Of a stretch of DNA of 64,000 nt, positions 13,777 to 47,074 are shown one piece after another. Position numbers and translations under genes: made by a program. This stretch comes from Sinohyriopsis cumingii (taxonomy: Eukaryota > Mollusca > Bivalvia > Unionida > Unionidae). Positions within the stretch are counted from its first letter, which is position 1; the number at the start of each line of letters is the position of its first letter. Location: contig CM068838.1 of assembly GCA_028554795.2 (NCBI GenBank), forward strand, positions 123,821,928 to 123,885,927. Reading direction: 5' to 3'. The notes under the pieces were generated by a model. That model did not search any database, was not told the origin of the DNA, and was given only the letters and a program-made list of their open reading frames with translations.

Positions 13777-14317
13777 ATGAGGTCCGCAGAAAATGCAGCC
13801 AAGTCAAATAACAACACGGAGAGGAATCTGAACAATTCAATGGAAATAACGTCAGGAAACACATTTAAAATGACAAAGTTTCAAATTATCAAGAACGTGT
13901 TGGTGGTCAGCTTAGTGTTTCTGTTTGTGTTCACATCCTTCCAGTCCTTGTTCAACCTTCAAAGCAGTCTTAATAAGGAGGCCGGGTTGGGAGTCATTGG
14001 TTTATCAGTGATATACGTCGCTCTGGTCGTTTCTTGCATGCTTTTGCCGCCAGTCACAATCGCCCATCTTGGTTGCAAATGGACTGTGGCATTTTCCATG
14101 CTGTGCTATATCGCGTATATGGCAGCCAACTTTTACGCCATCTGGGGTACAATCATCCCTGCTGCTATTATTCTCGGACTTGGAGCAGCGCCACTACGGT
14201 CCGCAAAGTGCACGTATATTACACAGATCGGAGTTTGGTACGCAAAAATGACCGGTACAAGAGAAGATTACACCATCAACCGATTCTTTGGAGTATTCTT
14301 CATGATATTTCAGACGA
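13777..14317 (+). CDS. UNC93A: UNC-93 copy 1, exon 1
   Basis: The exon probably starts at 13742 after an acceptor, with the ATG at 13777 (MRSAENAAKSNN). It encodes a polar N-terminus of about 45 residues, then four or five hydrophobic helices up to the donor ACGA/GTAAGC. The same exon exists in copy 2 (62271-62820) with the same phase-1 end. Confidence 0.92.
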
Positions 14318-17300
14318 GTAAGCAACATACCTTTTATGTGGTCGCATTATATCATGCATTTAAGATTAAGATATGCGGACTAAGGAGAAAATCATTGTGC
14401 ATCATCCTCCATTAGAGTTTCGTATTCTCAAAAATTATATACGGTATGATCTAAGAAGGAAATGGTATAGCATATGTTCATAATGTGAAGGATGCGTGTG
14501 ATAATATAATTAAAGAAGTCCTTAAATGACCAAAATATTCTTGCTAAGAAAGCTTCTTTTCACGTTAAAGCTTCTACGAAACAAAATTATTCATTAAATA
14601 TTGAATCGCTTTTAAATCGCTTGCTTAATTGATCAATCAATAAATTCTTTGTTGTATTGATTCGTTTGCTGATTCCAGGTCAGATCTGGGGCAACTTGAT
14701 TTCTTCCATGGTGTTCAGTCAGAGACCTGCGAACTCCGCGAATAAAGTGTCGACTGAAGATCTCCAAAAGTGTGGAGCTAATTACGATCCAACAATAATC
14801 GTTAAGAACGCCAACCTTGACAAACCAGATATGGATAAGGTAATACCAAAGACTAGATGCTGAGTCTTCATTTTACAATATTTTTTAGAATGAACTTAAT
14901 ATGTCATATATCACTATTACTATATGACAGATGACTCCTTCCTTGTACATCACGTGATGGAACCAGAGACCAGTGAACGTCACGCTTATCGTGTCGTTTG
15001 AATGTGGGAACAGTTCAACTAGCCACGTAAATAATACCCACATGGATGAACCAGTTATGAACAAAGTAATGCCAAAAAGTAAACCTACATCTTCAAATGT
15101 GAGCCTTTATTTTGAATCTCCCTACCATTGCAAATTTTATAATAGCTTGGATGTGACAGGTATCACTTTTAAGTCAGTCCCAATGGCATCTGTTTACTTC
15201 CTTGTAATTCAAGTAACGGATCCAAGAATCTTACAAGTAAGATTTCTAATAATACCTTATATGATAATTGGAGTAAGAGTTCACCACGTTACACAATGCT
15301 ATCATGTTTATTTGTTTTCCTCAGTCTCATCCACTATTTCAAACTTCGCTGTTTTACATCAGAATGATAATTTAAATATTATTTGTAGGAATGAAAAACC
15401 CTGCCAATGCTATTGCATCCATCCAGCCATCAACAGTAGTTCTGTTTCAGATTATAAACGGTGTGAATAACATTTTGTAATGTTTACATCCTACCTGAGA
15501 TTTAGCAAATTAAATTTGCGCAATGTATCTTTATATATGTAACTTTCCCTGCCACGGACCCTGTTTGGTTTTTCTTCTCGAAAATCACCATGTTTGCGGT
15601 TTCTATAACATTGCATACTATTAACCAATTTTACTGGGGGGGGGGGGGTATGGTTAATTTACCTGATTTTTCCAATCGCAATCATTTATTTATTTTATCA
15701 AATATATTTAACTTTAGATTTATACAGTCTGTGGTATTTACATCGCAAGCGCAGTCGTAGGCTTCCTGATTATCATCATATTTCTCGACCGGATCGTGTT
15801 GGACAAGGACGATGAAAAGGAACCGGTTGAAGCCAAGAAGATCTCCCCCCATCTGTTGATGAAAACCTTCAAACACTGTTGGCGGAGCAATTATCAGAAG
15901 CTCATCGTACCCCTCACCATTTACAGCGGAATCGAACAGGCCTTTATAGCTGGAGATTTTACAGTGGTATATTTAAGTCCAACAACTCAGTATGCTTATT
16001 TTTTAATTGAACATGCTGTTACTGCAAGATAGTCCGCTGAAATACCTATAATTACAATCCATGTATGAAAACATGTTTACTGAATCGGAATATTGAAATG
16101 ATTACCTCGTCAACCTGTTTCCTTCGCTTTCCTGTTTGTATATTTTTCTACTGTGGCATTAATTACAAGGCCCACCGAAATGTAGTAATCTATGGAAGAG
16201 ATGAGGATCGTAATTGGCCATAGACTCCAGCAGCAAGGAGGGTGGGGACTGATAGAAAATAAATGGCCGTCGACAAAGTTTATTTACCCAACCTATTAAG
16301 TCTCAATGTGGAATCAGATGCTATTATGAGCAAGAAACAAAACATTTATCCCGAACGATCTAGATTTATACTCAAAGAGCCACCATACTGTAATCTGACC
16401 TAAGAACAAATTAGCAAAAGGAAGTGCTTGCGACCAGGTTGAATGACATTTGATATCTGTTGAATCTTGGGTAATTGTTGTATTTTTCTTTTCCCATTGC
16501 CATTGTTGGATCACCAAGTGCGCAAATTTTGAGATTCAGAGGATTTTTTTGTTTGTTAATTTGTAGTCAACCACACACACACCCCTTAAGTGAAACATGG
16601 ATGCTTTAGAATTAATACTCTTAATTAGATTCGAATTGGCCCACGTTAGTGCAGCTGGGTTAGATTTATTTTTATTAAGTTTACAATTAGCCTTTTATAT
16701 GTTTCGTCTATTTTCATTGCATCGCGGGTATTTGTTTCATTTTACGCCATTTATATGATTTTATCTTCTTCTAATATAGCTTTATTTTTCAGCAGAGGAA
16801 TAATCGTTTGCGTCTTTTATTCTGATGTAATCAAAAGCATTTTTTTTCTCATAATATCGTTTAAGCGCTCGAAATTCTTGTCCGCCGCAAGAAACACATA
16901 AATGGGTATTTCCCTTAACACCACTCCACACTTCAGACATGGTTGTGGTCCAGTACTGCCACGGTGAACACTGGCCATGTGATATCCACAGTAATTTCCA
17001 TGACAATTTATTTACAAGGTGTGACTAATCGGATCATGACCCACCAACAACTATCTTTTGCCTTATGCATATTTTATAATTGGATAAAGTTCAATTGAAC
17101 ATAATACTTTTCCTAATTATATATATGACTAATTCTAATGTTGCAAAGCAAATGCAAGAAAAGAAGTTTAATCTAACCGGGACAAAAACTGGATTCCCTT
17201 AGGTCGGAAATCGCACAAGAAAAACACTAAACGAGATGAAATCGTTATTAACTGCGAGTGAATTTGAGAGATTAACATAAATAGAACCAGAGAAGAATAG

Positions 17301-20300
17301 ATAAGTTTTTTGAACGAGAACGAAAAAGAATGGAGATTGAACCACAACACACCACTATATATGATTTTGACCAACTGAGTTAAAGTTATGTGATTTTATC
17401 AAACAAGCAAAGAACAAATTTATCAACAAACGTGCGTCTCATGTTTTTTTCAACATTTAGGATAGATGGTGATGGTATTTTAATTGGTTCCACAATGACT
17501 GACAAGCGAGCATTTACTATTGTTAATAATCTAGTTGATAATTGCAAGTACATATTCAGAACAAAAAATTATTCTAGAACATATCATACAAGATGGATCA
17601 GGTGGATTATTTGTGATAAACTCGACCCTGTTAAACAATCACGTCAACATAGCAATGTAGTTTCAAAAGAAAAAATTCTAAACCGGTTATTTTCAGTGTA
17701 ATATACAAACCATACTACAATAACTCTTAACAAGTTCCGCAGTTGTTCACGCAATTTGTCGTTTAAATGAACGAGACATAGCCGCTCTGCTTCGATGAAA
17801 TTACGTTGCTAAACGTGTCAGACAGCATTTTGTAAACCCAAGCGTGGAAATGGACTTAGAGAATCAAGAATAAAATATAGCACACTGGGAAAACTCTCTT
17901 ATCAACGGAGCTAAGACGGATGAAGGGGTCATTTTAGAAAAAACACTGAAATTTCCGATAATTATAAAAACAATCTCAAACAACAATTTGTACAATTCTC
18001 GTAAATACTGTAGTAAGGGTGCTCCAGTAATTTTGCATGATCATAATTCGCATGCGCGGACGGACTCGTTGACAATATTTCCAAGAGAGAGAATAATACG
18101 ATTTTACCACGGTGCCATTTACGAAGAAATCTACAACATAAGTAAGCATGATCCTGTATCAGTCTGGTTATTTCATAGAGATGATTCTGAGTATGGAGTT
18201 ATTTATATGAACAAACCGCTCCAACATACTATAAAACATATTTTGTTAAAATACTACATAGACAACGATGAATTACTCAAATATTCTTTTAAGGTGTCGT
18301 TTGTTGTTGTGCATATAAGCGAACAAAAAATTCATGGCGACCTACTCAAAAAAATTCTCGATGATGTATCACGATCATCTTTTGTCGAATTTGGTCTAGC
18401 GGTCTTTGGAAAACAAAATATAATTCCTCCCATATGATTTCTCTGACAATTCCTTTTATTATTCAATTAAGCGATTGAATATCAATTCTTCTATGGAAAT
18501 AACTGCTATGTTCATTAATTTGGCGTATCAGGTCATATTTTAATCTTCGAAATGAAACAACCATGTTATATACGTGATCTCTAAAATATTTCAATTCACC
18601 CACAGGTAATTCCACTAGTCTTCTAAAATATTCAAGTCTGGCATCTGGTAAATCTGCCAGGGTACGACAATCGTGCATGATAAATACTTGATTTAAATAT
18701 TTATACTTGAAATAAGTCCCCATCTAAACAATATTACATGACTAATGGCACTGGTCAACAGTGAAATCATTACTGACTTAAAAAGGCCCTAATCTGTAGT
18801 ATTTTGGTGTGCCGAACACGAATATAACCGTGAAAAATTTGTATTGGCTCTCGTTTTGAAGATATTCATATACCTCATTTTCTATGTTTCACTGTGTAAA
18901 TTTCTCCAGTAGGACTGCAGCAACATCCGGAATAATGATGTAACATTGCATAATACCATCATGCTCACATCATCCACAGTTGATTGCATCATTTTCTGAT
19001 GCAATGCAATACTAATGCCATGCGGCTGCTGAAGTAAGTTGACGTCAGCAGTGTACTATACATGTGTAGGCCTATTATACTAATGCCAGGCGGCTGCTGA
19101 AGCTGACGTAAGCAGTGTACTATATAAAGCCCAATCAGATAGGTTCAGCATTTAAAATATTTTAGACGTTGTGCGAGACAGTTCAAGCTACTGTTACATA
19201 AAACTTATTATTTTATCCATTTACGTACAATAAAGAACAGTAATGCCTCGAAAGTGTGTTAATACCGCGGACAATTTTTGCTATATTTGTGGGGAAGTGA
19301 CATTTGCCAACCAGAAGAAAAGTATCAATTCTCAAGTGAAGAAGGCATATCATCTTTACTTCGGATGCAAGGTTGGTGACCAAGACAAGCCTTGGGCTCC
19401 GCATATATGCTGTGCTACATGTACAACACAGCTTTCACAGTGGTTGAATTGCAAAAGGTCATCAATGCCGTTTGCAGTCCCAATGGTGTGGAGAGAGCCA
19501 AGCAACCACCTAAATGACTGTTACTTCTGCTTGGTTCCTCCTCTTTCCGGCGGAATAACAAAGCGAAAGAAGTCGAGAATAGTCTACCCAAACATTCCGT
19601 CTGCATTGAGACCAGTTCCACATGGTGAGGGACTTCCTATTCCAGAACCTCCAGCAGAATATTCTCTTGATTCATCTGACGAAGACAAAGGTGAGTCGAC
19701 CTGTTCTTCTCCTGGTCCATCAGCATGCAGTGATCCAGATTTTCACTGTGGTGCATCATCAACCCCACACAGAATAACACAGGAAGAACTAAATGACCTG
19801 ATTCGTGATTTGGACTTATCAAAGAACAAGGCAGAATTGCTAGGATCAAGACTCCAACAATGGAATCTTCTAGAAGAAGATGTCACAATTACTGCATATC
19901 GAAAGCGCCACCAGCAATTGGAGCCTTTCTTCAGAAAGGAAAGTAATCTGATATTCTGTTCCAATATTGAGGGCCTCATGAATGCTTTAAAAATCACTCA
20001 TGACCCACAAGAATGGAGACTATTTGTGGACTCTTCGAAACTGAGTCTCAAGGCTGTGCTTTTGCACAATGGAAACATTCTTCCATCTATTCCAGTAGCG
20101 TATGCTGTCCACATGAAAGAGACATACGATAACTTAAGGCAGCTACTGAATTCCATTGAGTATAACAAGTACAGCTGGCACCTCTGTGGTGATTTGAAGG
20201 TAGTTGCCCTTTTAATGGGACTGCAGCAAGGATATACAAAATACATGTGTTTCTTATGCGAGTGGGATAGCCGAGCAAGGGAAATGCACTACATGAGGAA

Positions 20301-23300
20301 GGAATGGACTCACAGGCAGAATGTAGCCATTGGAGAGAAGAATATCCAACACCCAGCTCTGGTTGAGGCTCAGAAAATCTTGCTACCACCCCTTCACATC
20401 AAACTAGGTTTGATGAAGAACTTCGTGAAAGCCATTGACCGGACTTTGCCAGCATTCCGATACCTGCATGAAAAATTCCCTCGACTCAGCGAAGCAAAGA
20501 TTAAAGAGGGAGTTTTTGTGGGTCCTCAGATTCGAGAGCTTTTCAAAGATGACCGGTTCAACAACTTGCTGGAAGGTGACGCGAAACAAGCATGGAATGC
20601 TTTTCGCCTAGTTTCTACAAACTTCCTCGGAAACGTTAGGGCAGAAAACTATAAGGAACTAGTAGAAGACATGTTGATGAAGTATAAGAAACTTGGCTGC
20701 AATATGACTCTAAAGATTCACTTTCTTCATTCCCATTCGGATTTCTTTCCTAGCAACTGTGGTATTGTTAGTGATGAACACAGCGAACGTTTTCATCAAG
20801 ATATCGCAACAATGGAACAAAGATACCAGGGAAAATGGTCCACTACAATGCTGGCTGACTACTGCTGGACACTCCTCAGAGATGCTCCCGAACAGCTGTA
20901 CAAGAGACAGGCGAAGAAATCTAAGATGTAGTCAATGACTTGATTTTTTATAGGTAGGCTATTACAGTTGACCTTTTACTATTGGAATGCATTTCGTTAT
21001 GTAAACATTAATTTCTTGCAGATTACAAAAAAACTAGAGCCAATTTTGCAATTTGACTGTCATATTCGTGTTCAGCACATAAAAATTGATAAGAATTGAC
21101 TAATTTTATTTCAGTAACATGACTTTTGTAAAAATTTGTTGTCCAGTGTGGTTAAAGACCGTTGTCTTTTATTATTATTATTTTCTTCGGAACAAAATCA
21201 GATTTGTGTGGTCCTGGTTTTTGTTCAACAACAACTGGTGTTATGAACGGTCATACCAGCACTGTTCTGATCGTTGACTTATATATGTGAACGGCGTAAT
21301 TTGAAGTCGCAGAATCCCCCGCTGTAATTTCAATACCGGTGCTCAACTTTGGCTCGCCCACTTTCATAGCGATCCTTGATTCTTTTCGTGTTATTGATTT
21401 AATTCTACGCTGAAGTTCATCATTGATTTGTTCGATTTGATTTATTCTGCTGGTGCGTTGATGAATTTCCAATCCGAGAGTGGCTGCCATTCTCATCAAT
21501 CTTGGTTTTATGCGATAATACCAGTGTATTGTTGGCGTCTAATCCACCAAATGATTATTCTCTGATATGTGGCCAACTATAATGAAGTCGTAATTGTGCC
21601 AGTGCGATTTCAAGTGACCGACTATAAGGAGCTTTTATCGGAGTTGGAAAACCAACATCGTTTTCCGGCCGTGTTGAAGTCGCTGTTATCATTGCGGTCG
21701 TCGGTGACGTTGTGTTGGCGATGATCTGTTCCAGTCATGGTTATCTATACGGTGGATTCTAAATGTGGCCCTGTCAACGTCGGCAAAGGTATGTTTACGT
21801 TTTTGTGATACAGACAATAAATATCACTAATTGCATCAAATTCATTGTCCGATGTTACACCATCGTTTAACTCCGCTGACAGTATCGATGATATATTTTT
21901 GCACGCATATGTCGCCGCGTACGTTATTTCTGTGTGCTCGTGCAATTTCTTGCTGGCACATGTAGATAATTTGTTCGTGATAATATTGAGGATAACAGCA
22001 ACACAGACAAGAACAATGACACTGATTCCACCCGCGTGCGATATCCCGTGCTTCGCTGATAACTTTCTGATTAATGTCGTTGTTATAACAAGGAGACCGC
22101 GTTAATAATATTGTTGATGGCGAGGAACCGTATACGATATTTTTTGTTTATCATCTGCTCGTCGACGATTTCTTTCAGCGGCGCCTTCTACGCACCTGCT
22201 CGATTATACCGAAAGGATTGCGTGTGCTTGATTATGCGTTATACTAAGTTACCAGGTGAGGTGATTTCGCGACGAATTCCAGACACCACCAATACGTCGT
22301 TGCGGTTAGGGTTGTGTCTTCCTGATCCAGTATTAATGTTTCCTCGGTATTTTAATTTAACACGACTGTCAAAGTTCCGGAAAACGACCGGTGGAATGAC
22401 GACATTGATATGTCTTAAATATCCTAAATTTAGCGGCAATAAACACGGAGTGACTGTACACCCCAGTGATCTCAGCGGTATGTTTGATAAAGTTTTTCGT
22501 TGTGACCATGTTGTTGTTCCAGTGTATGCCGTGCTGATGAACGGAGTCGTGTGAATTGCGCTATCTTGAATGGTTTTGAGTTTTCAACGATTTCAGTGAG
22601 CTTAATGTTGACGACTCTTGTATTTCCAAAGAAATTATCTATGGTTCTATTTATGTGTCTACGAAAATCCTAAAACATGTTTATGTCATTAACATATTCA
22701 GGTCTGAATGTGGTCAGTCCATCATTGGTTGTTATTAATGAGGTCACCATCGGGATGTTGCTGTTGACCATGTATTTCGTCGATTCAGCGTCATCTTTTG
22801 ATGTTGGTTCTCTCAAATGAGCTTTGCTATTTTCGCTCATGTTCAGATCGCCAATCATTGTATCACCGGCTTTAGTAACGCATTTACTGATCTCAATTCT
22901 GATCGTGGCCTGGTTGTTGTTCACGTATTTGTTTGTTGCCACCTCATCCTCTGATTTTTTCTCTCACATTGATAATTGTATTTCTGCTCATGTTGAGATC
23001 GCCACACAATAAATCTCTACTTCTTCTAATACGTCCAGCAATCTCTCCAGTGATTCTTAGAAGTGATTCCTTTGAGTTTTTAATTTTACCGGTTTTAGTA
23101 AATACCACTAAGTTATCTTTGGAAGCCCCCGGATCTCGCAAAATAATATCTGTAAATGGAATATTGCTCGTCTTTAACCGTCCTCACTGATCCTGGAAAA
23201 CAACAACTTCATTTGTGTCAATATCGGCGATCAGCAAGTTCATCTCGTGTTGCATATTTGGATAAATCAATATCACCCTGGGGCTTGCCTTTAGCAGATC

Positions 23301-32093: not shown

Positions 32094-32119
32094 GTATGAA
32101 AAAAGTTATGAATAATTTA

Positions 32120-34020
32120 CTACCATATAATTTCCACAGTGCCAGTTTATGGAGCAATTGAACGCAGTGCTCCTTAAACACGTATTCATTTCATTGCTGT
32201 GATCAAAACATCCTGTGCTTTTTCCGTCGAGATAGAAACATGAGATGTTTTTAGCTGCCATTGAGAAATATATTATGAGCACAATATGGCGGCGAAAGCA
32301 GACAAAATGAACTTCCTCGGCATCTGCTTTAGTAACATATGTGGTACACTCCGACGGAGGCTGCACAAAAACGCATCAAATGTACATGTACTTCTACAGC
32401 TACTTACGGTGTTATTATGTACTTGATGGCAAAGAATGGGCTATTTTCAGATTTACACCTAAATAAGGCTTTGTGATTATTGTAAAAGAAAGAAAAATTA
32501 AAGTGATCTTTACCTTTGTCAAACATAGTAGTCGTATTATTTTAATAGAAATGCAAAAACAGAAAGTCACAATAATAGCTGGATATGAACAAAAAGTGTT
32601 GTTCAATGTTTTGTAACAAATTATAAATCGTAGACATCTGGATGAGTGGTACCAATAGAGTCCATCATAAAATTTTCCAAATTGGAAACTGCAACCAACT
32701 TATTATCAATATCTGCTTCGTCGTATTATAATTATGAAAAGCTGTCTACAGGGTCCTATAGGTCGCGCAAGGGCGGTCCACAAGAAAATTAACTACTGTG
32801 GGTTTCGATCTCAATATACTGGATTTGCACGTTAAGCACTGAGATATCCAAAGCGCATCATTTCGAGTGGCATGTGGGATCTCAGAGCACAAAGCACTGT
32901 AGGTTTCAAAACATATTTCAATTTAATGATATATTTAACGTTAAATAAACATCAGAGTTCCGCTGTTGCCGTCATATTAATGCTTAAAATTTCCCTTCAA
33001 TTTATTGTATAAATATTGATTATCATTAAGACAAGAGACATGGGTGTATATGGTAGTTTTAGTTTAAATGATTTTTAAGCGGTCAGATATGGTAATGTTA
33101 GAAACAAATTCTACATAGTTCACACATCTGATACTGATCAAAATTCTGGTCCATAGGACTTGGAGTCTGTGTTTGTCACCACTTTAAAAGCAAGAATTTA
33201 TAATGTTAATGAACCCTGACTTTGTCTCTATTTTGTAGCTTTGATAAACTATTGGCCTGTTTTAAACTAACAGTGTGTTCTGTGTAAAGTGCAGTCGTGT
33301 TGAGCCCTAGCTTGGGTGAACATTAATAATTGGTTAGAAATCTTCTTTGTGTTCGATGTTATTGTTCGCAACATTTGTACCCCGTACCTCGTAACAGCCT
33401 CCGAAACGTGTCGATAAACTTATGTCATTTTATTATAAATGTCTTTGAAGAAACAGATTTTGCAAATTGAACTAAGTCTCTTGTTTGATGTTTTACTCAG
33501 ATTTATATTCGTGCTGCAATCTCACTGTTTTGTGTAACTTTATAGACTTTGGAAACAATAGTGCAAATACCGATTATAATTTAATATAGTTGTTTCAAAA
33601 ATCGACATCTTTGAGGCAAATGCCCAATAAAGCTAGACCTTTTCCTTTAATGTTGTAGATGCCCCATGAGGAAATAGAATTGTACCTTATAGAATGATTA
33701 CCTTTTTCACAAGCAATGACACATATATATTATTATGACGTACTGTGACAAGTATTCCGAATATCAACGTGTTACATAATCATTTGATTCTTTTTCAGTA
33801 GACTCTAGAAACAAAAATGTCAACACTTTTGGATTAATTATTGCTGTGCAGCAGAAACAAACAAGCAATGTTTATTTGGGTTGGGCTGAGGCTGCTTTAT
33901 GGAATTTTATCTGCAATGCAGTTTGTCTCACTTTATGCTGAACTTATTTTGATTGACGCATATTAGCATTGTTTGGCGAATGTTAGAAGAACTCACTCAA
34001 ACTCCGGTTTGGTTTGGTTG
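32120..34020. other. Stretch between UNC-93 exon 6 and the ITAM-like exon
   Basis: I searched both strands for a signal peptide, transmembrane exon or start codon that could begin a separate gene for the downstream phosphatase exons, and saw none convincing. There are short AT-rich frames only. Confidence 0.45.
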
Positions 34021-34127: not shown

Positions 34128-34440
34128 CAATTTAGGAAAAGTATATGAGCATTACCCTAAATCCTGTGCTTAGAAGATATACACACACACCCCATTCATT
34201 TTTGTGTCTTTAAAGAATCGGATTCGTTTAAAAACGCGAGAGTATTGTCACAGAAGACTGACTTTAGTATTTACATGACCAGGAAGTAAAGATGAAGTAA
34301 TTTGCATCTTCAAAGTCATGGAAGATGTAAATTCTGCAATAACTGATCGAGTTATCAATGTTTTCTTGTCTTAATTTGCTCATTAAATAAGTATGATTTT
34401 ACAACATAATGCACTGACGCCTGCTTTTAATAATTAATAG

Positions 34441-34658
34441 ATCGGCTGTTGATAAACACTTTGACGATCTTCAAGCAAGAGGCCACACAGATGAAAATTA
34501 TTCTGGGATAAATGGTAACCACGATAAAACCTATGACGATCTTCAAGCAAGAGGCCACACAGATGAAAATTATTCTAGGATAAATTGTCACCGTGATAAA
34601 ACCTATGAAGATCTTCAAGCGAGAGGCCGGACAGATGAAAATTATTCTAAGATTAATG
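34441..34658 (+). CDS. Exon with three 24-residue ITAM-like repeats
   Basis: Acceptor TTAATAG and donor AATG/GTAAGC. The frame that continues UNC-93 exon 6 (phase 2 to 2) is open throughout and leaves in phase 1. It encodes three near-identical units. Units 2 and 3 read TYDDLQARGHTDENYSRI and TYEDLQARGRTDENYSKI; unit 1 has HFDDL, so it lacks the first tyrosine. YxxL, nine residues, then YxxI, with acidic residues before each tyrosine, matches the immunoreceptor tyrosine-based activation motif consensus (YxxL/I-x6-12-YxxL/I). If attached to UNC-93 it would form the cytosolic C-terminal tail; phosphorylated ITAMs recruit tandem-SH2 kinases. The function is inference from the motif. Confidence 0.75.
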
Positions 34659-37600
34659 GTAAGCGTAAACGAGCTAACATTAAAGGCGTACTTATGCTGT
34701 AAAAGTAAATATTACTGAGGTTGAGGGAAATGCATTATGCATTATTAACTTGCAGTCTTCTATGCTAGTTTTATGCTATGTTTCCTTAAACACGAAACTA
34801 ATTTACCATATTTTCTGGGTGAGATGCTATAACCGCTTACTTCGACAACGACTGCGACAGCGAAGAGAAAACACCACAACCACACAACCTCCACACTGTC
34901 GTGAACAGTCGTGCTTCACTCAAATCCTCCGTCATTTAGATCTCTACTGTTTGGCTGAATTAGTGAAACAAAGCTAAAATAATATCTGCAGCGAGGTCCA
35001 CTTCCTTAAACATAAGCCATCTGACATCTGTTCGGGTTATAATAATGTCTTTATTTATTTGTGTCACTAATTTTAGAATACTTCGTGCAATGCATTGCGA
35101 ATCTCGTTAATTTGGTGCATCATAGATGGACACGGATAATTAAAATAAGAAAAAAATACGAAACCCATGTTATTTGATGCCTATGATAGAAAAATAATTT
35201 TAAAAACTATCTGGCGACATAAATTTAAAACGATGAATTCAAATGTTAGTCAAAGAGTGTTTTGTGAAGAAAACTACGAAAACAATGATGACCATTTATG
35301 CTGTTACTGTTTCAGACACGTCAACAACGATAGCAAGAGCTACTAAACTAGTGTTACTTCTACTTCTTCCATTTCTATTATAAAAACTATTGTCGCTATT
35401 CAAAAAATATTTTAATACTATCATTACTTCAGTTTTACAGGTACCACCATTGTTAATACTAACGCTATTGCAGGTACTACAACCACCACAATTATTGCTA
35501 CCACAGCTACTGCAACAACCGCTGCCACCACCACCACCACAACTACTATTGTTTCTACTACAACGATTGCTACTTACAAGAACAGTCTTGTGATAGTAGG
35601 AATAGTGCTAATAATAATAGTAACAAAGTAATAATAGGAGTAGTAACAGTCGCACAACATTACTAGTAGTTGTCTTAAATTTTTCTCAAAGTTAAACTAA
35701 CAATACCTGAATAATAAAAAAAAAAAAACAGTTATAAGGCTGTGCGGAAGAATCAACGTATTTTAGGATTAATACAGCTGGTAAAAATGTTTAGAAGCAG
35801 GTAGACCTCATAAGATTTCGACTGTGCAGAGTTTTTGTTCTAACTGTAATTTTATTTTATAAGGTGCTGAGGACATTCCATTAGAGAGCCAACCAAATAC
35901 AGAACGAACTCCTGAAAAACACTGCATTGCTATTGGACATTATCTTCAGTTTTATGAAACACTTATGGAGGCCAATTTAAGCAGTGGGAAATTGAATATT
36001 TTGCATAGTTTTGAGGTAAATTGCAGCATAGCTTTTATAACATCCTATTCTCGCCACATAACGCGTTTAGGATCCATCAACAGTGTCCAAAATTTGAACT
36101 CCTTGTTCTATCTCATACTTTTTCCATCAATTAAATGTTGATTCTTTACTTGCACACGAAGCATGCTTAAAACAACCATCATTGCCAAACCGGGGGAAAA
36201 TCACATTAAAAACAATTTTAGAATCGTCGGTACAAAATAAAGTAGCAACACCATATCTGTCCACAGAACCTCCAAAGTGTATTACAGTGAACAAAAAGAT
36301 ATATCAAAAGACACCCGAGGAAGACACATGCAGTTAAAGAACATTTTTGCAAGAAGTGTGGATGGATGGACCGATGGATAAGATGGGTTAATAGATGCAT
36401 GAATGTAGGTGGGTAGGAAGTTAATGTACATAAAAGTAGGTAGGTATACGCTATAAATGCAGACAAACGAGCAGGCAAATAAATGGGATATGATCTATAT
36501 ATGTCAATGGTCCCGCACGATATGTATTTTGGAATTTTAATTGTGTGGAGAAGGAAACTGTTACCTCACAGTTACTAGTTTATTTTTAGTTATAAATTTG
36601 TTAATTGTTCAGACGTTTACATTTCTTTATGTAGTAGTATATATGTGATAAATATATTTATGAATCTGTACTGGAAGACAAAATGTGATCTGGATTGTTG
36701 TAAGGGACAAAAGAGCTTGATAATTCATGAATGGTTGCAAACCAATTTAAAAAAAAACTTTAAAATGGTAAGAAATAAAACAATTTAAGAAAAAAAATCC
36801 ACATGGTATGTAATAATGGTCTCACTCTGTATAATCCAGCAAACAAAGGATGTTTTTGTCTTTCCTAACACGTGAGCGTCCGTTTGAAGTCCATTTAAAA
36901 AAAATTATAAAATGTTTTAGAAATGGATGTAAAGAAGTTTGATAAGTAACATGTTCAACATGAATAATCATCTTAAGCCAAATTCAAATGCTGACTTCTG
37001 ATTATTAGCGTGCATTATTGGGAAGCCGACATCTGATTGTGATCACTCTCTATTCGTCCTATAGAATAATTGACATTAAATTACTCAGATGCCGACATCT
37101 TATTAGGAACAAGCAGGCGTTATTCGAATGCCGATATCTGATTATAATCACGCTTTATTCGAATGCCGACATCTGATTATAATCACGCTTTATTAGAATG
37201 CCGATACCTGATTATAATCACGCTTTATTCGAATGCCGATATCTGATTATAATCACGCTTTATTCAAATGCCGACATCGGATTATAATCACGCTTTATTC
37301 GAATGCCGATATCTGATTATAATCACGCTTTATTCAAATGCCGACATCGGATTATAATCACGCTTTATTCGAATGCCGATATCTGATTATAATCACGCTT
37401 TATTCAAATGCCGACATCGGATTATAATCACGCTTTATTCGAATGCCGATATCTGATTATAATCACGCTTTATTCGAATGCCGACATCGGATTATAATCA
37501 CGCTTTATTAGTTTTACAGAATAATTGACATTAAATTATTTAGATGCCGACATCTGATTTAGGAGCAAGCACGCTTTATTCGAATGCCGACATCTGATTA

Positions 37601-38103
37601 TGATCAATCTTTATTCGTTTTACAGATTAATGGACAAAGAATCAATCATAATGCCAACATCGCTTTTAAAAGATAGCACCCCCTTCGAACATTATAAAAC
37701 CAAACTGAGGCAACATTAACATATTATTTACTGTTTGGAACAAGAACGAATTTAAAGACACATTATTTTGCTTTGCAAGCGTCATTAAGATACTGATGAC
37801 TGGACTTTGCGGAAAGGATGATCTCTAGCCTTTTGGTTTATTTGATTATAATAGAGTCAACCAATCTCACTCATCAGCGATGCTGATATTAACACTGTTC
37901 TTATTTTCTGCCAATCGCATTTTACAATGATGGCTGCGGTCATTTGCAACAATTTAGACTCATTTTCCTTTCACATATTCAAATATATTACTTTAGTATA
38001 CAGAAATAATATAATTTGCCTTTTAGGATTATTTGACAAGGATGAATCGAGACCAAACCTCCAGTCAATACGACTATCCAATCTTTATTTCAGGTAAAAT
38101 ATA

Positions 38104-38729: not shown

Positions 38730-41700
38730 TGCTTGTGTATATGTGTGCAATCAAATGTCAAACCTGTGTACGAAACTTTTCTTAGTGAGGAAAATGAAAT
38801 GGTCATAAGAAATCGTTGGTCTATATTATACACGTACAAACGCATTGGTTTATGTACGAAACAAATAACAAAGCGGTGGCACAAAGATGATGGTGCTTCT
38901 AGAATAATTTGTTTATTTTAATTTTAATTTGGATGAATTTAAAATTACTGTTCTAACTTCAAACAGATGAACCATTATCCAAGGATGGTGCAGGTGCTAT
39001 GGACATATATCACGTGAGCTATTACATTATTCCACACATTTATTTTGTCAATGCGATTATCAGAAATGTGTTATATTCCCAAAATTATCATCCATGTCAA
39101 ACAGTAACTATAACAAAATTCATTAAAAGGAAAGGAAAAGCTTCAACAAGTTAGGATGGACATTTGGATAAAGGAAACCACGATACGCTTAGGGTATTAC
39201 ACAACATTGACAAAGACAAAGAAAATTGAAAGGTAGACGGTCATAACATTGCAATATAAGGAAATCAGATTAATGACAGAAACATTAATAAATGCTTGCT
39301 TATATATATGTTTGTGTTAGGTACATTCTTCGGTAGCTGCATATATGAAAGATAAAACAATAAAATGTGTACGTTGCAAGGAAAATTTAAAAAGGAAATA
39401 AAAGACTGTTCAATGAAAAGATGTGAGGGAATTAATAATGATGCTACATTTAACCTAGTCTAACATAATTAATTTTTATGTAAATAATGAAGATTTGATA
39501 ATATCCAAGCCATTTTGGAATATTTGATTTTAATAGTAAGTTGTTGAAATGATTTTTATCTTGCCTTAATACAAACGTAGAATACGATATGTACTTCTAT
39601 AAATACACACTGTGACATTTTGTTCCATCTTTTTTAATTTAATTTTGTATGTGTATGCCATATAAATCAATAATGTATACAGTGACATGGAAGAGTTAGC
39701 ATTTGCGGAACATATCCTTAAACGATTATTTAAAAGCGGGTATATTTTCTAAGATTCACAATTAAGCTAAAACTTTGAAATACCTTCACAGATGTTTTGT
39801 TTCACAACTAACTGCACTTATGTGTTCCTGTTTTGATTGCAAGAACAGTTTTGTTGCTGGTGCACGAATAATGTTATATATTGCATTTTGTGTAATTGAA
39901 ATATGTGCCAGAGAAAAACAAGTAAGTTTAGAAATACATTGCAACATTTCCAAGAACACTAATAATTTGAATGGTAGTAGTAAAGGTCAAATATGTGGGT
40001 TTCTGTCCAAACTCATTGTTGTGTTGTCCCTTGCCTGATAACCATGTATTTGACTTTAATATAAATCAATATTGTAGACCTCTGTGATATGAATGCGGAG
40101 GTGACATAGCATTAGAACAAAGAACGAGTTAATGTTAAAAAATTATAGCGCAGGAAACTTGTACTAAGCTATGAACAGTGATTTTGTTGAAATTTGGGAA
40201 ATTGAAGGATTAATACTATAACTACGGTCAAATTAGAAATACGAAAATCTGGCAAATCAAATTTACCCACGTCTACTAATTAGCTCTAATCTTTAAAAAT
40301 GAAATTTAGAAAATAATTTAACTCCTTAGAACATTAATCACTTTATTGCTATGTGACTTTTGCTTTCATATTGATCATTTCGAAAAAGTTAGCGAAAAGA
40401 TTTTGAATAACATCGGTATGAATCTGTTCATATCATATAGCACAACTGGCCAAACTTACCAATTTAAGCTTAGGTAGGCCTCTTTGTAACACGCCAAGCT
40501 TTGTACAACAGATGTTATCACATAATGAATCAAACTTAACCTGGTAGAAGAACCGACATCGGTCCGTTGGAATACCTATTAAATAACGCTTTACCGACAT
40601 CTGGTGATCGGTAGGTGGAGGAGCTTGGGTATGCCCTAATTATGGAGATTAATTAGGAAAATACTCTGTATTTGAACAGGGAAGCGTGATCTCAGCGTAG
40701 TACCTAACTTGTATATTATGTAAGACATTGAGAAAATAAATACATCGATCGATATCTTTAGTCTTTATAAAAGACAATGACTTTCCTCCATCTCCAAAAT
40801 TATACCGTCTCTCGCTACATAATATTTTGCTCTGTTTTACTTGGTGTTTCCGGCCTTATTTCTCCATCATAAATCTATAAATTAAAGGTTTGAGTTACAT
40901 GTGTGTCTTCTCTCTCTCTCTCTCTCTCTCTCGATCGATCGATCGAATGTTCATTGTCCTTAGATTCTTGCCCAATCCTTTTTGTCGATATTTGTAAAAG
41001 AATTTGTGACGATTTGGTCGCTTGTAAAATGCTTGGAACAAACAAATAGCAGTAGGACATTCTCTGACACTTCTTCATAATACTTCTCGCAATGAGACAA
41101 TACAATCGGTTGATCGCTAAAATTTAAGACAAAGGAAAATAATAGCCCCTAATTTGTTACAGCATACTGCACAAAATACGTAATGTTCACTTGGAAAAAA
41201 CTTGTGATTAATACATTTCTACATTAGTGGCTTGTCTGCAATGACGTCACGCGTAACAGCAAACCGAGACTTAGTCAAGAGAAGTTGATGTTGTTGTTGT
41301 ATTAGGGTTTAACACCATGTTTCAGCACATGATAGGCTATACATGGCGGCCAATATTAATGGTGGAGGAAGAACCCGGGAAAACCCCGGTTAGAACCACC
41401 GACCCACGAGAAGCTGCTGGCAAGCTTTAGCTGAATCCGAGACTCGAACCCACGCAGACAGAGGTAAGATGGCAGTGATCCGTAACGGAGAGTGCGTTAG
41501 ACCACTCGGCCACTCGGGGCCCCGTCAAGAGAAGTAATGCAGTCGGTAAGTTTAGATAACCTAACTCGTCATTAAATTTAAGAGTATGTTCTGGAATTGG
41601 TTTGGAATAAATTTCACCGGAAAATGCATGCTTAATCTGCACATTTTGTTCTATCAAAAAACAAAAATTAGAACTTGACACTTTGAAGATTTTGTGCCTA

Positions 41701-42601
41701 ATTGACCCTTAACCTTAATTTAACTTCGAACGTTACCTAACAATATTTGCTAAATTTCTAGCTTGGCGAGAAAGGAAGAGTCTGCATGGTAACAGCAACG
41801 TCGGTTATGACTTCAAACTTCTGGAATAACGTTGTGGATAATAATATTACGACCATCGTGGACCTTGATGTGGAGGTAAATGTTTGACGTTTCATAATAT
41901 GTTAATTCTGTTTAAAGACAACTCTTTATTAGTTTTGTTTATACTACGACAATTACCAACAATTATGTGTGCTATTTGCACTGTACACGTATATACAAGG
42001 TGATATTTTAACATAACCGATTTATTCATTTCTAAAGATAGACAGCAGTTTATGTAAAAACTGAACTAGTTATTTCAGTCTTAAAAAAACAAACATGTAT
42101 CTATATTTTTTCGTCTTTTTGTGTTGTTGTGTGAATGGAACAGATTCATATCTTTTGAAAATTGGATAAAGTCCCATGCGAAGATCTAATATCCGTTACT
42201 TGTTTCCTATAACCTTTCTGGGGTTAGAAAGTTGTCCACTTACGTTGATCTCTACATTATTTCAGGGAGATGTGGATCTGAATAAGAGTACCAACATTTC
42301 GTTCATACATGTTCAAGTTCAAGGAGTTAATGAGAAATACTTGTCGGGAATACGTGTTGTGAAACTTCAGTTAATATCTGGTAACAAAGTATGTACCCAA
42401 TTTTACTGATCCATTCCTTGCATTGCTGTATTGCTGCAAGTCTAAAATATATTTATATATTCAACAGTTTACACACAATGAATACAGACTAGAAAACAAT
42501 ATCGTTTGGAAATTAACGCAGTCTTGAAACCTTCCTTGGGAAATATACTTTGCATAATAGGAAATATCATAATAAATCATTTCAAGCACTGGCTGTAACC
42601 A

Positions 42602-42649: not shown

Positions 42650-44164
42650 GTTTGGACTTGCCTGTGGGCAAGTTACTTGGAAATCTGAGCTTGCCCGAGC
42701 CGGATTTGAGCTTGTCCCGGGAGCTGGGCAAGTTGAAATGTAAATCCCCACACTAGTCCATCTGGTCTGTGGGATCCACCATCCATCGAATGCTTTTAAT
42801 GAAAATTAAAAATTCTACAACATCCTACTAACATGCACGGTATTGAAGCTTGTTTATAAATTACAAATATAATATTTACCTACTAAGGTGACTTATCTTC
42901 AAAGTTGTACAAATATTAGAGTGGCATGGCACAAGGTATGGAAAATAAATTCTAAACACATTCCAAATATTAGAGTGATCTAGCACATGGTGTGGCCTAT
43001 ACATTCCAAACACATTCCAAATATTAGAGTGATCTAGCACAAGGTATGGCCTAGTAATTCCAAACACATTCCAAATATTAGAGTGATCTAGCACATTGTG
43101 TGGCCTATAAATTCCAAACACATTCCAAATATTATAGTGATTAAGCACATGTTGTGGCCTATAAATTCCAAACACATTCCAAATATTAGAGTGATCTAGC
43201 ACACGGTGTGGCCTATCAATTCCAAACACATTCCAAATATTAGAGTGATCTAGCACATGTTGTGGCCTATAAATTCCAAACACATTCCAAATATTAGAGT
43301 GATCTAGCACACGGTGTGGCCTATAAATTCCAAACACATTCCAAATATTAGAGTGATCTAGCACACGGTGTGGCCTATAAATTCCAAACACATTCCAAAT
43401 ATTAGAGTGATCTAGCACATGGTGTGGCCTATAAATTCCAAACACATTCCAAATATTAGAGTGATCTAGCACACGGTGTGGCCTATCAATTCCAAACACA
43501 TTCCAAATATTAGAGTGATCTAGCACATGTTGTGGCCTATAAATTCCAAACACATTCCAAATATTAGAGTGATCTAGCACACGGTGTGGCCTATAAATTC
43601 CAAACACATTCCAAATATTAGAGTGATCTAGCACACGGTGTGGCCTATAAATTCCAAACACATTCCAAATATTAGAGTGATCTAGCACATGGTGTGGCCT
43701 ATAAATTCCAAACACATTCCAAATATTAGAGTGATCTAGCACACGGTGTGGCCTATCAATTCCAAACACATTCCAAATATTAGACTGATCTAGCACAAGG
43801 TGAGGCCTACATATTCTAAACATATTTCAAATATTAGAGTGATCTAGCACAAGGTGTGTCCCATAAAAGCTACGCACATTCCAAATAATAGAGTGCTCTA
43901 GCACAATTTGTGACTTACTAGTAGTACAGGCATTCCAAAAAGGGAAGCAAAATTCCCGATTTAACCAGCTGGATTATTCGCAAAATTATATGAAAAACAA
44001 CTTTACAGGTCCTGAAAGTAGAAGAAGGTGGTCTAAATTACAGAGACAACGACAATGTAAATGTTTGTATTGGGCATGTGTGTTATAAATTGTTTGTTAA
44101 CGGGAGGAGTGACATAACAGAATAATGATTTTCGTTTCATATTGATAAATATTAAATATATTAA

Positions 44165-44258: not shown

Positions 44259-46388
44259 TTCTTTTCAGGAACGCTCTGTATTGTATATTGCAGCAACATT
44301 TAAGCTGGATGAGGAATTACTGGTCAATGCTAAGAAGCTGGCAATAATTTATATCCACGGTGTCAAGGCCACTTCTGAAAGTGCCGAACAAAATGTCATG
44401 ATTCACATCAAGTAATTACTCACTGCAATGCTAACTTAATTTTTATAAAGTTGAAAGTTTTGTCATTTTTCAAAAATATTTAACAAACACGAAGTAAAAC
44501 ATTAAATTATATTACAATGATGATTATTACTGCGAGTTTCGACGCACTTCAGTCAATGCTAAGCTTGGCAATAATTTTATTTTTAAAAAAGCTCCCCCCC
44601 CAAAAAAAAAAACAAAGCATGGTAAACATTAAATAGGAAAGATATTGCAGAAGTTTACAATGATATTCGGTAAAATACAATCTAATTTAAGCTTTCTACA
44701 TTTGCTTTTTTCGAGAGAGATGTGTGTTGGAATTTTCTACTCATTTCTTTTTTTAAGGTATGTTATGCATCTATGTTCTTACTTCTACATTGCAGCTGAA
44801 ATAAAAGGGAAGCAACTGTTAACTGTTTAAGTGAAACAAAATATCTGGGAATATTTTGACGAAAAGTACCATAAGCCGGTCTCGTCAAAGTTAAAATTAA
44901 AATTGTGAAACGTCTGAACACTTTCCTGTTGCATATTGTAACTGTTATCGTGTTGCAGGGCGACCAGTTCAGGCCAACATGGAATAGTTTACGGCGTATT
45001 TTCTGTTCTGCATCATCTGGATGAGACGGGATTTTTTGACCTGGACGAATCGCTGAAACACACAAGAGAAAAATCATTTTTGAAGTTGATACATTCGTAA
45101 GAAAAAGCTTTCATCATATACAGTACCTACATTTCCATTAAAACAGTAAAGTAAAACAGGAAAGTAAGAACAATTTACGTTTCTTATGAAAGGACGAACT
45201 GTTTCAGTGATATAAAACTCCATATTCATGTAAGCATATATACAAATAAGTACATATGTGTACTATGTATGTATATAAACATTACATACATGTAAGTATA
45301 TACACATACATATTAGTACACACAAACCTGCACGCACTACACTATGTATCCTACAGATACATGTAAAACTATGTTTTCCTACCTGGGGTGGTGGGGTGGT
45401 GGTAGGCACTTGTGTACCTAACAACGATGGTTTGGAGAGTGTTGTATTGAGTAGCTATATATGCCATATGTGTCAAATTGGAAATCGTCCGTGTCGTATG
45501 AAAATGCATATAAGTATAGTTAAATCCACTCCTCGTTACCAATATCCTCTCTAAACCCTACAGTTTAGTTTCCAGTAAATGTTATATGGAAACAAAGCTG
45601 AATAAAGAAATGAAATAATGAAAAATAATGAAAAGAATTTCGTGTTTAATATTTACAGCACAAGGCGTTTGAAAAAGATGACACATGTCACATATTGTAT
45701 CTGCAAACTCGTCTGCTTTTTTCTGTAGTCTCTGGTCAGGAATACAGTTAAATAGGTGTGGAAGTTATTTTGGAGAGATAGATAAAAGCTTCGCGATCAG
45801 GCCTAAATTTACCTCAAATTAAATAGGATTGTTAATATAGTATTGGCGTACTTTTCTCGCGACGTTTCAAACATTTATACGATACCAACAAGAAAAGAAA
45901 CAATACTGGAGAGAGAATATTAATAAACGGAGTTTAAACATTCACTTTAGGGAATCTCTGACCAGTTTTATAGCTTTGTATTGAAAAGGATTTATACATA
46001 TGACCATAAACGGAAAATGTATTTGCATTGCCCCGGATGCAGATGGTCTCGGGTTCGAACCCCGGCCGAGTCATATCAAATACTTTTAAAAATGGTATTA
46101 GAAGCTGGTATCTGGTGGAGTAAGAATGTGGGGGAAAAACTTAAGGAACAATCACCGACCCACGGGTAGCTACTGGCAAGCGTTCTCACATACCGACGTT
46201 GGACAAGCCTGAGACTCGAACTCAGGATAACAGAGGTGAGATGTTCGTGATCCATAAAGGCGAGCAACTTAGATTACTCGGCCACACAAGGTACGTAAGC
46301 GTATTGACATTTAAAGCCAGAAAAATATCCATAACATCCGACTGAGCTTTATTTACCTGTAGGAAAATGTTATGCTATGCAATGTAAA

Positions 46389-46422: not shown

Positions 46423-47074
46423 GGATTTTTAACGTAGCTTTAACAAATGTTCAGTCATATCGTTACGATGTCTGCAGCGTGACAGTTTATAGTGATGTCT
46501 AGCATTGCGGAATCATGCCGCAGTCATGTGGCATCATGTCCCACCCAATCACGTTATCTTCATGCCAGGCCGATCAGTCTTATCACTAACCTCTTAAGTG
46601 CTGAGCGCCAAGCGGGGCAGTTGTCAGTACCATTTTAAAAGCTTTTGGTATGACATGGCCGGGGTTCGAACCCGCGACTTCCCGCATCCGAGGAGGACGC
46701 TGTAACCTTGTAGGACATGACAAGGGTGCAAAGAGTTAAATTACCCTTGTTAATACACAACAGGATGTTAATTACCTTTGTTAATATACAACATGACGTT
46801 GTCACCATTTAATTATCTTCGAACTTGATACAGCATTTGCTAAGTGCATTATTTTTGTATTAAACGAGGCAAGGGAGATAGTGTGCATAATACACGCATT
46901 CATAACACATCCATACATACACAAACACACTTTTATGCATACAATATGAAATACTCAAAAAAAAAAAAGATTATCTTTACATTCTAGGAGAAGTTCAGGC
47001 TTTTGCATGATGCTGCAAGACTGTTCATTCTGAATCTCGAGGGAAAAGAAAACGTCAATGGAACACAGCTATAG
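34441..47074 (+). CDS. ITAM-like tail plus PTP pseudophosphatase exons (probably continuing UNC-93 copy 1)
   Basis: Ten exons: 34441-34658, 35864-36015, 38027-38093, 38967-39013, 41762-41875, 42266-42388, 44009-44056, 44269-44411, 44959-45096 and probably 46988-47074. The first nine have GT-AG borders and compatible phases. After the ITAM-like repeats comes the C-terminal helix of one phosphatase domain, then a whole divergent domain of the D2 (inactive) kind. The WPD motif is absent. The P-loop HCSAGxGRTG is replaced by IKATSSGQHG, so the nucleophilic Cys is Lys and the Arg is Gln. Receptor phosphatases often carry such an inactive D2. A complete active D1 is missing. The last exon is out of frame by one base relative to its neighbour. 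Confidence 0.65.
35400..35600. repeat. Imperfect trinucleotide repeat (ACC/ACT/ACA)n
   Basis: Loose repeats of TAC, ACC and CAC triplets. They create a proline/leucine-rich spurious frame. Confidence 0.7.
35864..36015 (+). CDS. Exon: end of a PTP D1-like domain
   Basis: Phase 1 to 0, with acceptor ATAAG and donor GAG/GTAAAT. It encodes an acidic linker (AEDIPLESQPNTERTPEKHC) and then HYLQFYETLMEANLS, which fits the last helix of a receptor phosphatase D1 (QYxFxxExLxEAxxS), followed by SFEDYL, as in D1-D2 linkers. Confidence 0.6.
36040..36970. other. Intron, nothing recognised
   Basis: AT-rich. Contains a purine-rich GTAGGTAGGTA-like stretch near 36410-36450 on the + strand but no gene. Confidence 0.4.
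36982..37660 (+). repeat. 35-bp satellite array with 70-bp dimers
   Basis: The unit is ATTATAATCACGCTTTATTC + GAATGCCGAYATCTG (35 bp). In the core (37120-37510) units of the types GATATCTG and GACATCGG alternate with TTCGAA/TTCAAA variants, giving a 70-bp dimer repeated about four times. Both flanks hold diverged units (GAATGCCGACATCTGATT...). It lies in an intron of the ITAM/PTP gene model. Confidence 0.9.
38027..38093 (+). CDS. Exon: PTP-like domain, N-terminal part
   Basis: Phase 0 to 1, with acceptor CTTTTAG and donor TCAG/GTAAAA. Encodes DYLTRMNRDQTSSQYDYPIF. It joins the previous exon in frame. Confidence 0.55.
38104..38372 (-). mobile_element. SINE family 1 copy
   Basis: (TG)n at 38105-38148, then the body TTTTTAACGTAGCTTTACAA...CCCACCCAGTCACATTATCC...GGCAGCTGCTTGTAC. 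The head is missing. It abuts the preceding exon's intron start. Confidence 0.85.
38671..38731. repeat. Compound (TC)n(AC)n microsatellite
   Basis: About 22 TC units then AC units. Confidence 0.95.
38967..39013 (+). CDS. Exon: PTP-like domain, short
   Basis: Phase 1 to 0, 47 nt, with acceptor AAACAG and donor CAC/GTGAGC. Encodes EPLSKDGAGAMDIYH. Supported mainly by its splice sites and by joining its neighbours in frame. Confidence 0.5.
39020..41280. other. Intron, nothing recognised apart from simple repeats
   Basis: Short frames only, for example 87 codons at 39775-40038 with no motif. A (TC)n run with GATC repeats lies at 40907-40946. Confidence 0.4.
41281..41522 (-). mobile_element. SINE family 2 copy, tRNA-derived
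   Basis: The minus strand starts GGGGCCCCGAGTGGCCGAGT, then GGTCTAACGCACTCTCCG, and later GTGGGTTCGAGTCTCGG: an A box and B box of a tRNA-derived promoter. The conserved central part (on the + strand TGGTGGAGGAAGAACCCGGG, then ACCCCGG, and GGCGGCCAATATT) and the start of a (TTG)n end (41289-41301) follow. A second copy is at 46107-46292. Confidence 0.8.
41762..41875 (+). CDS. Exon: PTP-like domain, FW..V segment
   Basis: Phase 0 to 0, 38 codons. GRVCMVTATSVMTSNFWNNV then VDNNITTIVDLD aligns with the phosphatase stretch FIATQGPxxxTxxDFWRMVW-ExNxxTIVMLT. The TQGP core is changed to TATS. Confidence 0.7.
42266..42388 (+). CDS. Exon: PTP-like domain, central beta sheet
   Basis: Phase 0 to 0, 41 codons, with acceptor TTTCAG and donor AAA/GTATGT. 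EKYLSGIRVVKLQLIS fits the DYTIRTFxL strand of phosphatase domains. Confidence 0.6.
42608..42646. repeat. (TC)n microsatellite
   Basis: About 19 TC units. Confidence 0.95.
42930..43885 (-). repeat. 54-bp minisatellite with a 270-bp higher-order repeat
   Basis: About 17 units built on TTCCAAACACATTCCAAATA + TTAGAGTGATCTAGCACA + variable C/TGGTGTGGCCTATAAA. Units vary at CACGG/CATGG/CATGTT and ATAAA/ATCAA. The blocks 43201-43470 and 43471-43740 are identical, and the next block starts the same way at 43741, giving a 5-unit period of 270 bp. Because 54 divides by three, the minus strand is open for 315 codons (repeat NIWNVFGIYRPHRVLDHS); I regard this as a by-product. It lies in an intron of the ITAM/PTP model. 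Confidence 0.95.
44009..44056 (+). CDS. Exon: PTP-like domain, 16 codons
   Basis: Phase 0 to 0, with acceptor TTTACAG and donor AAT/GTAAAT. Encodes VLKVEEGGLNYRDNDN. Small and supported mainly by its borders and frame. Confidence 0.45.
44171..44256. repeat. (TA)n microsatellite
   Basis: About 43 TA units, ending 12 bp before the next exon's acceptor. Confidence 0.95.
44269..44411 (+). CDS. Exon: PTP-like domain, region of the lost WPD loop
   Basis: Phase 0 to 2. RSVLYIAATFKLDEELLVNA aligns with the stretch in which active phosphatases have HFHFTxWPDxGVP; neither WPD nor its Asp is present. It then continues with a helix and VMIHIK, the start of the P-loop strand. Confidence 0.65.
44959..45096 (+). 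CDS. Exon: PTP-like domain, degenerate P-loop
   Basis: Phase 2 to 2. ATSSGQHGIVYGVFSVLHHL then DETGFFDLDESLKHTR aligns without gaps to the phosphatase P-loop and next helix (HCSAGxGRTGxxIAL...EGVVDxxxxVKxLR). The catalytic Cys position is Lys, the Arg position is Gln, while the Gly before it and the Gly two positions after it are kept. Confidence 0.75.
45100..45980. other. Intron, nothing recognised
   Basis: Contains ATACA/TGTA-type simple sequence near 45230-45320 and a G/T-rich GGGGTGGTGG stretch near 45384. No gene seen. Confidence 0.4.
46033..46106 (+). mobile_element. SINE family 1 fragment (tRNA-like B box and start of body)
   Basis: GATGCAGATGGTCTCGGGTT followed by CGAACCCCGGCCGAGTCATA and TTTTAAAAATGGTATTA matches the head of the copy at 63473. 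It is cut by the SINE family 2 copy that follows in the opposite orientation. Confidence 0.7.
46107..46292 (-). mobile_element. SINE family 2 copy
   Basis: The minus strand reads TGTGTGGCCGAGTAATCTAA and GAGTTCGAGTCTCAGGC, the same A and B boxes as the copy at 41281. The body ACCGACCCACGGGTAGCTAC (on the + strand) is shared too. Confidence 0.75.
46390..46722 (-). mobile_element. SINE family 1, near full length
   Basis: (TG)n at 46391-46420, the body (TTTTTAACGTAGCTTTAACA, ACGATGTCTGCAGCGTGACA, CACGTTATCTTCATGCCAGG), and at the far end a tRNA-like head whose minus strand reads GATGCGGGAAGTCGCGGGTT + CGAACCCCGG. This is the most complete minus-strand copy and defines the family: tRNA head, about 220-bp body, (CA)n tail. 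Confidence 0.85.
46988..47074 (+). CDS. Probable last PTP-like exon, one base out of frame
   Basis: After an acceptor (ACATTCTAG) the frame EKFRLLHDAARLFILNLEGK ends with TAG at 47074. It fits the last phosphatase helix (EQYxFxHDAxxE) with no gap after the previous exon. The previous exon ends in phase 2, whereas this frame needs phase 0, so one base is unaccounted for. A base error in the assembly, a real frameshift, or an unseen small exon are the options. Confidence 0.55.
   Translation, partial: EKFRLLHDAARLFILNLEGKENVNGTQL

Follow-up and report, generated by a model that had tools for sequence, protein, structure and literature searches.

A candidate freshwater-mussel gene joining an UNC-93 protein to a tyrosine-motif exon and a pseudophosphatase-like tail

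Introduction

Mammalian UNC93B1 escorts Toll-like receptors and, to our knowledge, carries no pseudophosphatase tail. Receptor-type PTPs consist of an ectodomain, one transmembrane segment, and the domains D1 and D2; inactive domains are common in D2, and the loop of an active PTP domain reads HCx5R (HCxxGxxR). ITAMs follow the consensus YxxL/I-x(6-8)-YxxL/I.

Here we describe a locus of the freshwater mussel Sinohyriopsis cumingii, contained in a stretch of 64,000 nucleotides (the window, C15:123821928-123885927), at which the exons of an UNC-93 gene are followed by a tyrosine-repeat exon and exons of an inactive PTP-like domain. Like UNC93B1, the mussel candidate is a membrane protein of the UNC-93 family, and is UNC93A-like by database names. 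It has the family membership and exon content of UNC-93/UNC93A-like proteins (PF05978) such as Sinanodonta woodiana ACJMK2_008964 (P0009), but P0009 and P0010 are short-tailed, ending in ...RRSSKNSADSTTKL and ...RRSMKNKAAIN, respectively, and lack the PTP part of the fused candidate. The tail is similar to receptor-type PTPs in having, by a weak profile match, a PTP-like fold, but it differs from them in being a single domain with the loop Cys and Arg lost, and no ectodomain or single-pass transmembrane exon was found with it. In the literature searched (partly by title), there was no report of an UNC93 joined to a pseudophosphatase, or of UNC93 in freshwater mussels, and the domain order UNC-93 then pseudophosphatase appears to be new for a chimeric gene.

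Results

Three tandem copies of the unit

The UNC-93-plus-tail unit is present in three tandem copies on C15, namely the window copy (W) and two copies nearby, units A (C15:123628001-123678000) and B (C15:123684001-123734000). Their shared parts are 80-94% identical, non-coding DNA included. The initial annotation had overlooked this triplication. In W, the six UNC-93 exons, together with nine exons farther downstream, form a fused frame open for 798 aa, with GT-AG at 14 of 14 introns. Its features, in window coordinates, are as follows.

12000-54129, plus strand: extent of the tandem unit, common to A and B; large stretches within the UNC-93 intron are not shared
13840-14317, plus strand: UNC-93 exon 1, its coding part given from a possible ATG onward and its N-terminus uncertain (tblastn to UNC-93 open reading frame, splice frame)
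14679-14839, plus strand: UNC-93 exon 2, SQIWGNLISS... (tblastn, splice frame)
15718-15966, plus strand: UNC-93 exon 3 (tblastn, splice frame)
30866-31001, plus strand: UNC-93 exon 4 (splice frame)
31357-31488, plus strand: UNC-93 exon 5 (splice frame)
31901-32093, plus strand: UNC-93 exon 6, with AGG|GTATGA as its proposed donor, phase 2 (junction matches Potamilus P0008)
32094-32117, plus strand: tail YEKSYE*, reached by read-through where the donor is unused (in-exon tails of seven paralogues)
34441-34658, plus strand: tail exon carrying the 24-aa tyrosine repeat three times (preceded by AG, phase matches exon 6)
35864-36015, plus strand: exon leading into the PTP-like domain (splice frame, Potamilus alignment)
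38027-38093, plus strand: PTP-like exon (splice frame, Potamilus alignment)
38967-39013, plus strand: PTP-like exon, the least conserved with Potamilus, 9/16 (splice frame, Potamilus alignment)
41762-41875, plus strand: PTP-like exon FWNNVVDNNITTIVDL, 36/38 identical in Potamilus (profile match, splice frame)
42266-42388, plus strand: PTP-like exon (splice frame, Potamilus alignment)
44269-44411, plus strand: PTP-like exon (splice frame, Potamilus alignment)
44959-45096, plus strand: PTP-like exon in which the active-site loop is dead; 1-nt deletion relative to units A and B
46988-47033, plus strand: last exon, out of frame in W (splice frame)

The initial annotation had phase-matched exons running on to 47074. 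Eight exons do continue the phase after 34441, but the frame is not kept to that point in W, which meets a stop at 47031; in units A and B the last exon is read in phase, as EKFRLLHDAARLFI. This frameshift in the W tail counts against the fusion. Unit B has an intact fused frame of 875 aa, open throughout and with GT-AG in 14/14 introns. In unit A both halves are broken: the UNC-93 half has lost the exon-5 acceptor and has a TGA within exon 6, and the tail has indels and weakened splice sites, with one extra base in the counterpart of exon 44959-45096; exon 9 of the tail is frameshifted. That a broken UNC-93 goes together with a frameshifted tail without significant constraint against B (see below) favors their belonging to one gene.

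Several other elements lie in or beside the unit. The large UNC-93 intron contains a reverse-transcriptase frame (PF00078; 27349-28068) and, in a part absent from A and B, a 565-aa open frame (19234-20931) for which Pfam gave nothing at E<=0.001. At 51744-51815 lies a short tandem repeat, advancing in 15-nt steps, that is strongly expanded in A and B (L046 and L052 regions).

The UNC-93 half and its last exon

With exon 2 read slightly longer, the W UNC-93 scores 75 bits against PF05978, for which the curated cut-off is 22.9 bits. Its nearest proteins, among the best 120 of 528, are those of freshwater mussels, being Sinanodonta (84% and 81% identity, with 374/443 residues identical in P0009) and Potamilus. 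The window also contains a second UNC-93 gene, whose first exon (62253-62828) resembles Potamilus CHS0354_030269 and Sinanodonta ACJMK2_008970, and an UNC-93-like piece with an in-frame stop (8227-8328), which is probably a relic of another copy.

The initial annotation had exon 6 ending in phase 2 at a usable donor, and this was borne out, with the donor GT present in all three units and scores of 6/9 in W and 7/9 in both A and B. If exon 6 is instead read on in W, a stop is met at 32115-32117 and the product is an ordinary UNC-93 of 456 aa, which weighs against the fusion; units A and B have no stop near 32115, a point in its favor, and in B the exon read on gives 503 aa. Among the best candidates scored, we found 16 UNC-93 last exons in the genome; three of them (L053, L054, and L059) belong to units W, B, and A, respectively. 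Seven of the 13 non-unit exons are readable past their ends (L055, L056, L057, L060, L065, L066, and L068), and the other six were left out as lying on the other strand (L058, L063, and L064), being degenerate (L061 and L062), or giving no alignment (L067). All seven readable exons run on for 9-12 residues to an in-exon stop, which suggests that the ancestral UNC-93 ended in its last exon with no intron there. A GT at the donor position was seen in one of the seven (L055), which shares the codons holding the exon 6 GT although no PTP exons were found near it. The exon 6 GT may be plain coding sequence, and because seven paralogue exons run on to a stop, one of them with a GT, the donor at 32093 is by itself weak evidence; the phase match between exon 6 and 34441 would arise by chance one time in three. 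These paralogue endings argue for two separate genes and against a fusion, and the in-exon stop was at one stage taken as an outright refutation, a position that we dropped after the junction described below was found.

A predicted Potamilus protein that shares the junction

Molluscan proteins in which an UNC-93 domain is followed by a PTP domain had been proposed as a check on the initial annotation, and one was found in Potamilus streckersoni (CHS0354_030268, or P0008; 795 aa). It is 68% identical across 100% of the fused W query, and the other 119 proteins among the best 120 of 528 cover <=59% of that query. The junction in P0008, ...GVIEVVYRR to SAAEKSNDDPQAKVQTDENYSRINGTEDIPLE (VVYRR-SAAEK), is at the same place as the exon 6/34441 join, and the protein has the same order of UNC-93 (69 bits against PF05978, above the same cut-off), tyrosine exon, and one dead PTP domain. 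Identity to W is 84% (212/252) in the PTP part and 70% (302/431) in the UNC-93 part. P0008 differs from W in having one incomplete repeat rather than three, a strongly diverged UNC-93 half, and the status of a gene model only. In a tree of the UNC-93 half, its branch is 0.45, versus 0.07-0.15 for W, A, B, and Sinanodonta; the mussel group is poorly separated, and the grouping of the fused genes together is neither shown nor contradicted. This long branch and the unsettled grouping count against the fusion. P0049 (CHS0354_030269), the neighbor of P0008 by locus tag and on a contig of equal length, resembles the second UNC-93 of the window at 62 kb, so gene order beside the candidate fusion seems to be kept, which supports it.

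Merging of neighbors is a known fault of gene models, and P0008, as the single EVidenceModeler model on which the Potamilus support stands, could have merged neighboring genes. According to PMC7937423, the Potamilus annotation used EVidenceModeler to merge the output of several ab initio programs with protein and RNA-seq transcript evidence. A protein search with the P0008 tail gave P0008 as the sole match among 2624 candidates. A PTP-only search gave 0 of 1927 candidates at E<=0.001; it was of limited sensitivity, with a length window of 188-597 aa that excluded the 795-aa P0008, but its finding no separate protein speaks against two genes.

A single dead PTP-like domain

Similarity of the tail to PTPs is low. 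Against PF00102, with a curated cut-off of 20.9 bits, unit B scores 19.7 bits (E 7e-4, profile positions 41-231 of 234) and P0008 scores 15.2 bits (E 0.016, positions 5-231 of 234 in one stretch); W, taken to exon 9, has no match at E<=1. PDB searches gave nothing significant (best E, 0.76), and an hhalign comparison of two-row profiles for the tail and a PTP of the same genome gave a probability of 5%. The initial annotation described the end of one PTP domain followed by an inactive second one, and this is wrong in its first part, since there is one domain and exon 35864-36015 stands ahead of that same domain; nor is there the tandem arrangement behind a single-pass membrane segment, as no membrane exon common to the units was found upstream. 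Its call of inactivity stands. The active-site loop reads HIKATSSGQHG in W, HIKATRSGQHG in A and B, and HIKATSSGKHG in Potamilus, so that HCx5R is absent from all four, with the catalytic Cys and Arg gone, and the tail is, by its sequence, a pseudophosphatase in every copy seen.

Elsewhere in the genome, the PTP part has its nearest relative on C3, with about 44-55% identity over short stretches. Counterparts of exon 35864-36015 and of the FW exon were found there, with no repeat exon within 3.3 kb ahead and no UNC-93 match among the best candidates scored; a PTP relative standing apart from UNC-93 is in keeping with two genes. More broadly, PTP matches are clustered on C1, C6, C12, C107, and others (150 scored of 497 candidates), and PTP genes look strongly expanded in the S. 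cumingii genome. An additional 48-nt exon of phase 0 at 44009-44056, although open in both W and B, was omitted, as it is not in P0008 and the frame does not require it. On the minus strand, 42876-43826 holds a 316-aa open frame consisting entirely of a 54-nt tandem repeat.

The tyrosine-repeat exon

A genome search with the repeat exon matched solely units W, A, and B (36 candidates scored). The 24-aa repeat is present three times in W, four times in unit A, five times in unit B, and as one incomplete unit, without the first tyrosine, in Potamilus. Strict YxxL/I motifs at both ends occur in 2/3, 3/4, and 3/5 repeats of W, A, and B, respectively; repeat 1 of W reads FDDL. The initial annotation was thus right about the matching phase and the three repeats at 34441, but both tyrosines are in only two of the three and nine residues separate the motifs, outside the x(6-8) of the ITAM consensus. 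With this spacing, a variable repeat number, and no conservation in Potamilus, the ITAM label fails, and a conserved ITAM is unsupported. Compared in every pairing, the 12 repeat units give a pS of 0.25 and a pN of 0.15, and they appear to be under mild constraint. The W repeat exon has no in-frame ATG, which is easier to reconcile with a fusion.

Selection on the two halves

Substitutions in the phosphatase half were counted over exons P2-P6 and P8, with a one-sided Fisher test. W and B differ at 13 of 136.8 synonymous sites and at 12 of 505.2 non-synonymous sites (ratio, 0.24; p 0.0005), which shows purifying selection on the phosphatase half between these copies; for comparison, the W-B ratio is 0.32 in UNC-93 exons 4-6. 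The ratio is 0.45 (p 0.034) for W-A and 0.67 (p 0.24, no significant constraint) for A-B, and unit A looks relaxed. The donor GT shared by W, A, and B, taken with the W-B selection, is favorable to the fusion.

Discussion

On balance, we lean toward a chimeric freshwater-mussel gene in which UNC-93 exon 6 is spliced to the tyrosine exon and a dead PTP tail. The intact fused frame of unit B and the Potamilus protein with the same junction support it, and these are the parts of the proposed UNC-93/PTP fusion that have lasted; the ITAM component is weak, and the two-domain component was mistaken.

We regard it as a real prospect, although not the probable one, that there are instead two neighboring genes, which the Potamilus model merges: an ordinary UNC-93 that stops at 32115 and, independent of it, a cytosolic pseudophosphatase. 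The phosphatase gene would then have its own promoter and a first exon at 32.1-34.4 kb that is short or non-coding, or else a Met start in 35864-36015. Between exon 6 and 34441 there are 25 ATG-led exons with a phase-2 donor of >=5/9, and three of these are open in W, A, and B (33716-33744, 33735-33751, and 34275-34285, of 9, 5, and 3 codons). With three such candidates open in all units, a separate soluble pseudophosphatase gene is possible, at those same lesser odds, and they count against the fusion; however, at 3-9 codons they are what chance would be expected to give. A block near 33740-33860, 0.92-0.97 identical between units and above its surroundings, is also compatible with two genes, but in the Potamilus model these two exons are joined as well, and at the identical codon. 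The initial annotation had seen no separate start or membrane exon in this interval. For a start, that was too strong; for a membrane exon, the hydrophobic scan and the ATG-led exons agree in giving none common to W, A, and B, as the two short hydrophobic stretches that the units share (near W 32953 and 33457) are in no ATG-led frame reaching a phase-2 donor in all three. Four AATAAA/ATTAAA poly(A) motifs lie between W exon 6 and 34441, which by our estimate, made with no control, means little in AT-rich DNA.

That the PTP exons are instead a decaying pseudogene fragment co-duplicated with UNC-93, its frames open since the duplication is recent, we consider improbable: the 1-nt deletion in the W tail, the indels and weakened splice sites in unit A, and the high identity of the non-coding DNA between units would suit it, but unit B is intact, the W-B comparison indicates selection at least before the last duplications, and the PTP half is 84% identical in another genus.

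Returning to the chimeric gene, we infer a fused transcript, and the topology, binding, and function of its product, along the following lines. A degenerate, dead PTP domain and a tyrosine-motif exon lie 2.3 kb behind an UNC-93 gene, and exon 6, the last coding exon of that gene, would splice to this tail from a donor within itself. The resulting UNC-93 protein would be multi-pass, and its cytosolic end would consist of a tyrosine-motif linker followed by a pseudophosphatase; where the splice is skipped, the product would be an ordinary UNC-93 ending at 32115. The UNC-93 part might determine membrane and cargo, SH2 proteins might dock on phosphorylated tail tyrosines, and the PTP fold, being dead, might bind or shield phosphotyrosine, or bind a partner, without hydrolysis. 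By analogy with the families, a scaffold or decoy mode is the likeliest, but in such detail it is doubtful. Tentatively, and with somewhat better prospects, the locus may be a mussel-specific chimera kept since before the Potamilus/Sinohyriopsis split, with a conserved dead phosphatase as the cytosolic tail of an UNC-93 protein and a linker that grew from one to five units in one lineage; a protein of membrane trafficking would thereby have become a phosphotyrosine-sensing scaffold.

A real fused transcript would mean that two families, which are not known to occur joined, form one membrane protein under selection in freshwater mussels. Such a gene would illustrate how a last exon can be opened, by a donor in the coding end of exon 6, to capture a neighboring gene, and would provide a natural test of the role of a pseudophosphatase when tied to an UNC-93 protein, in which the copies with three, four, and five tyrosine repeats would be an internal dose series.
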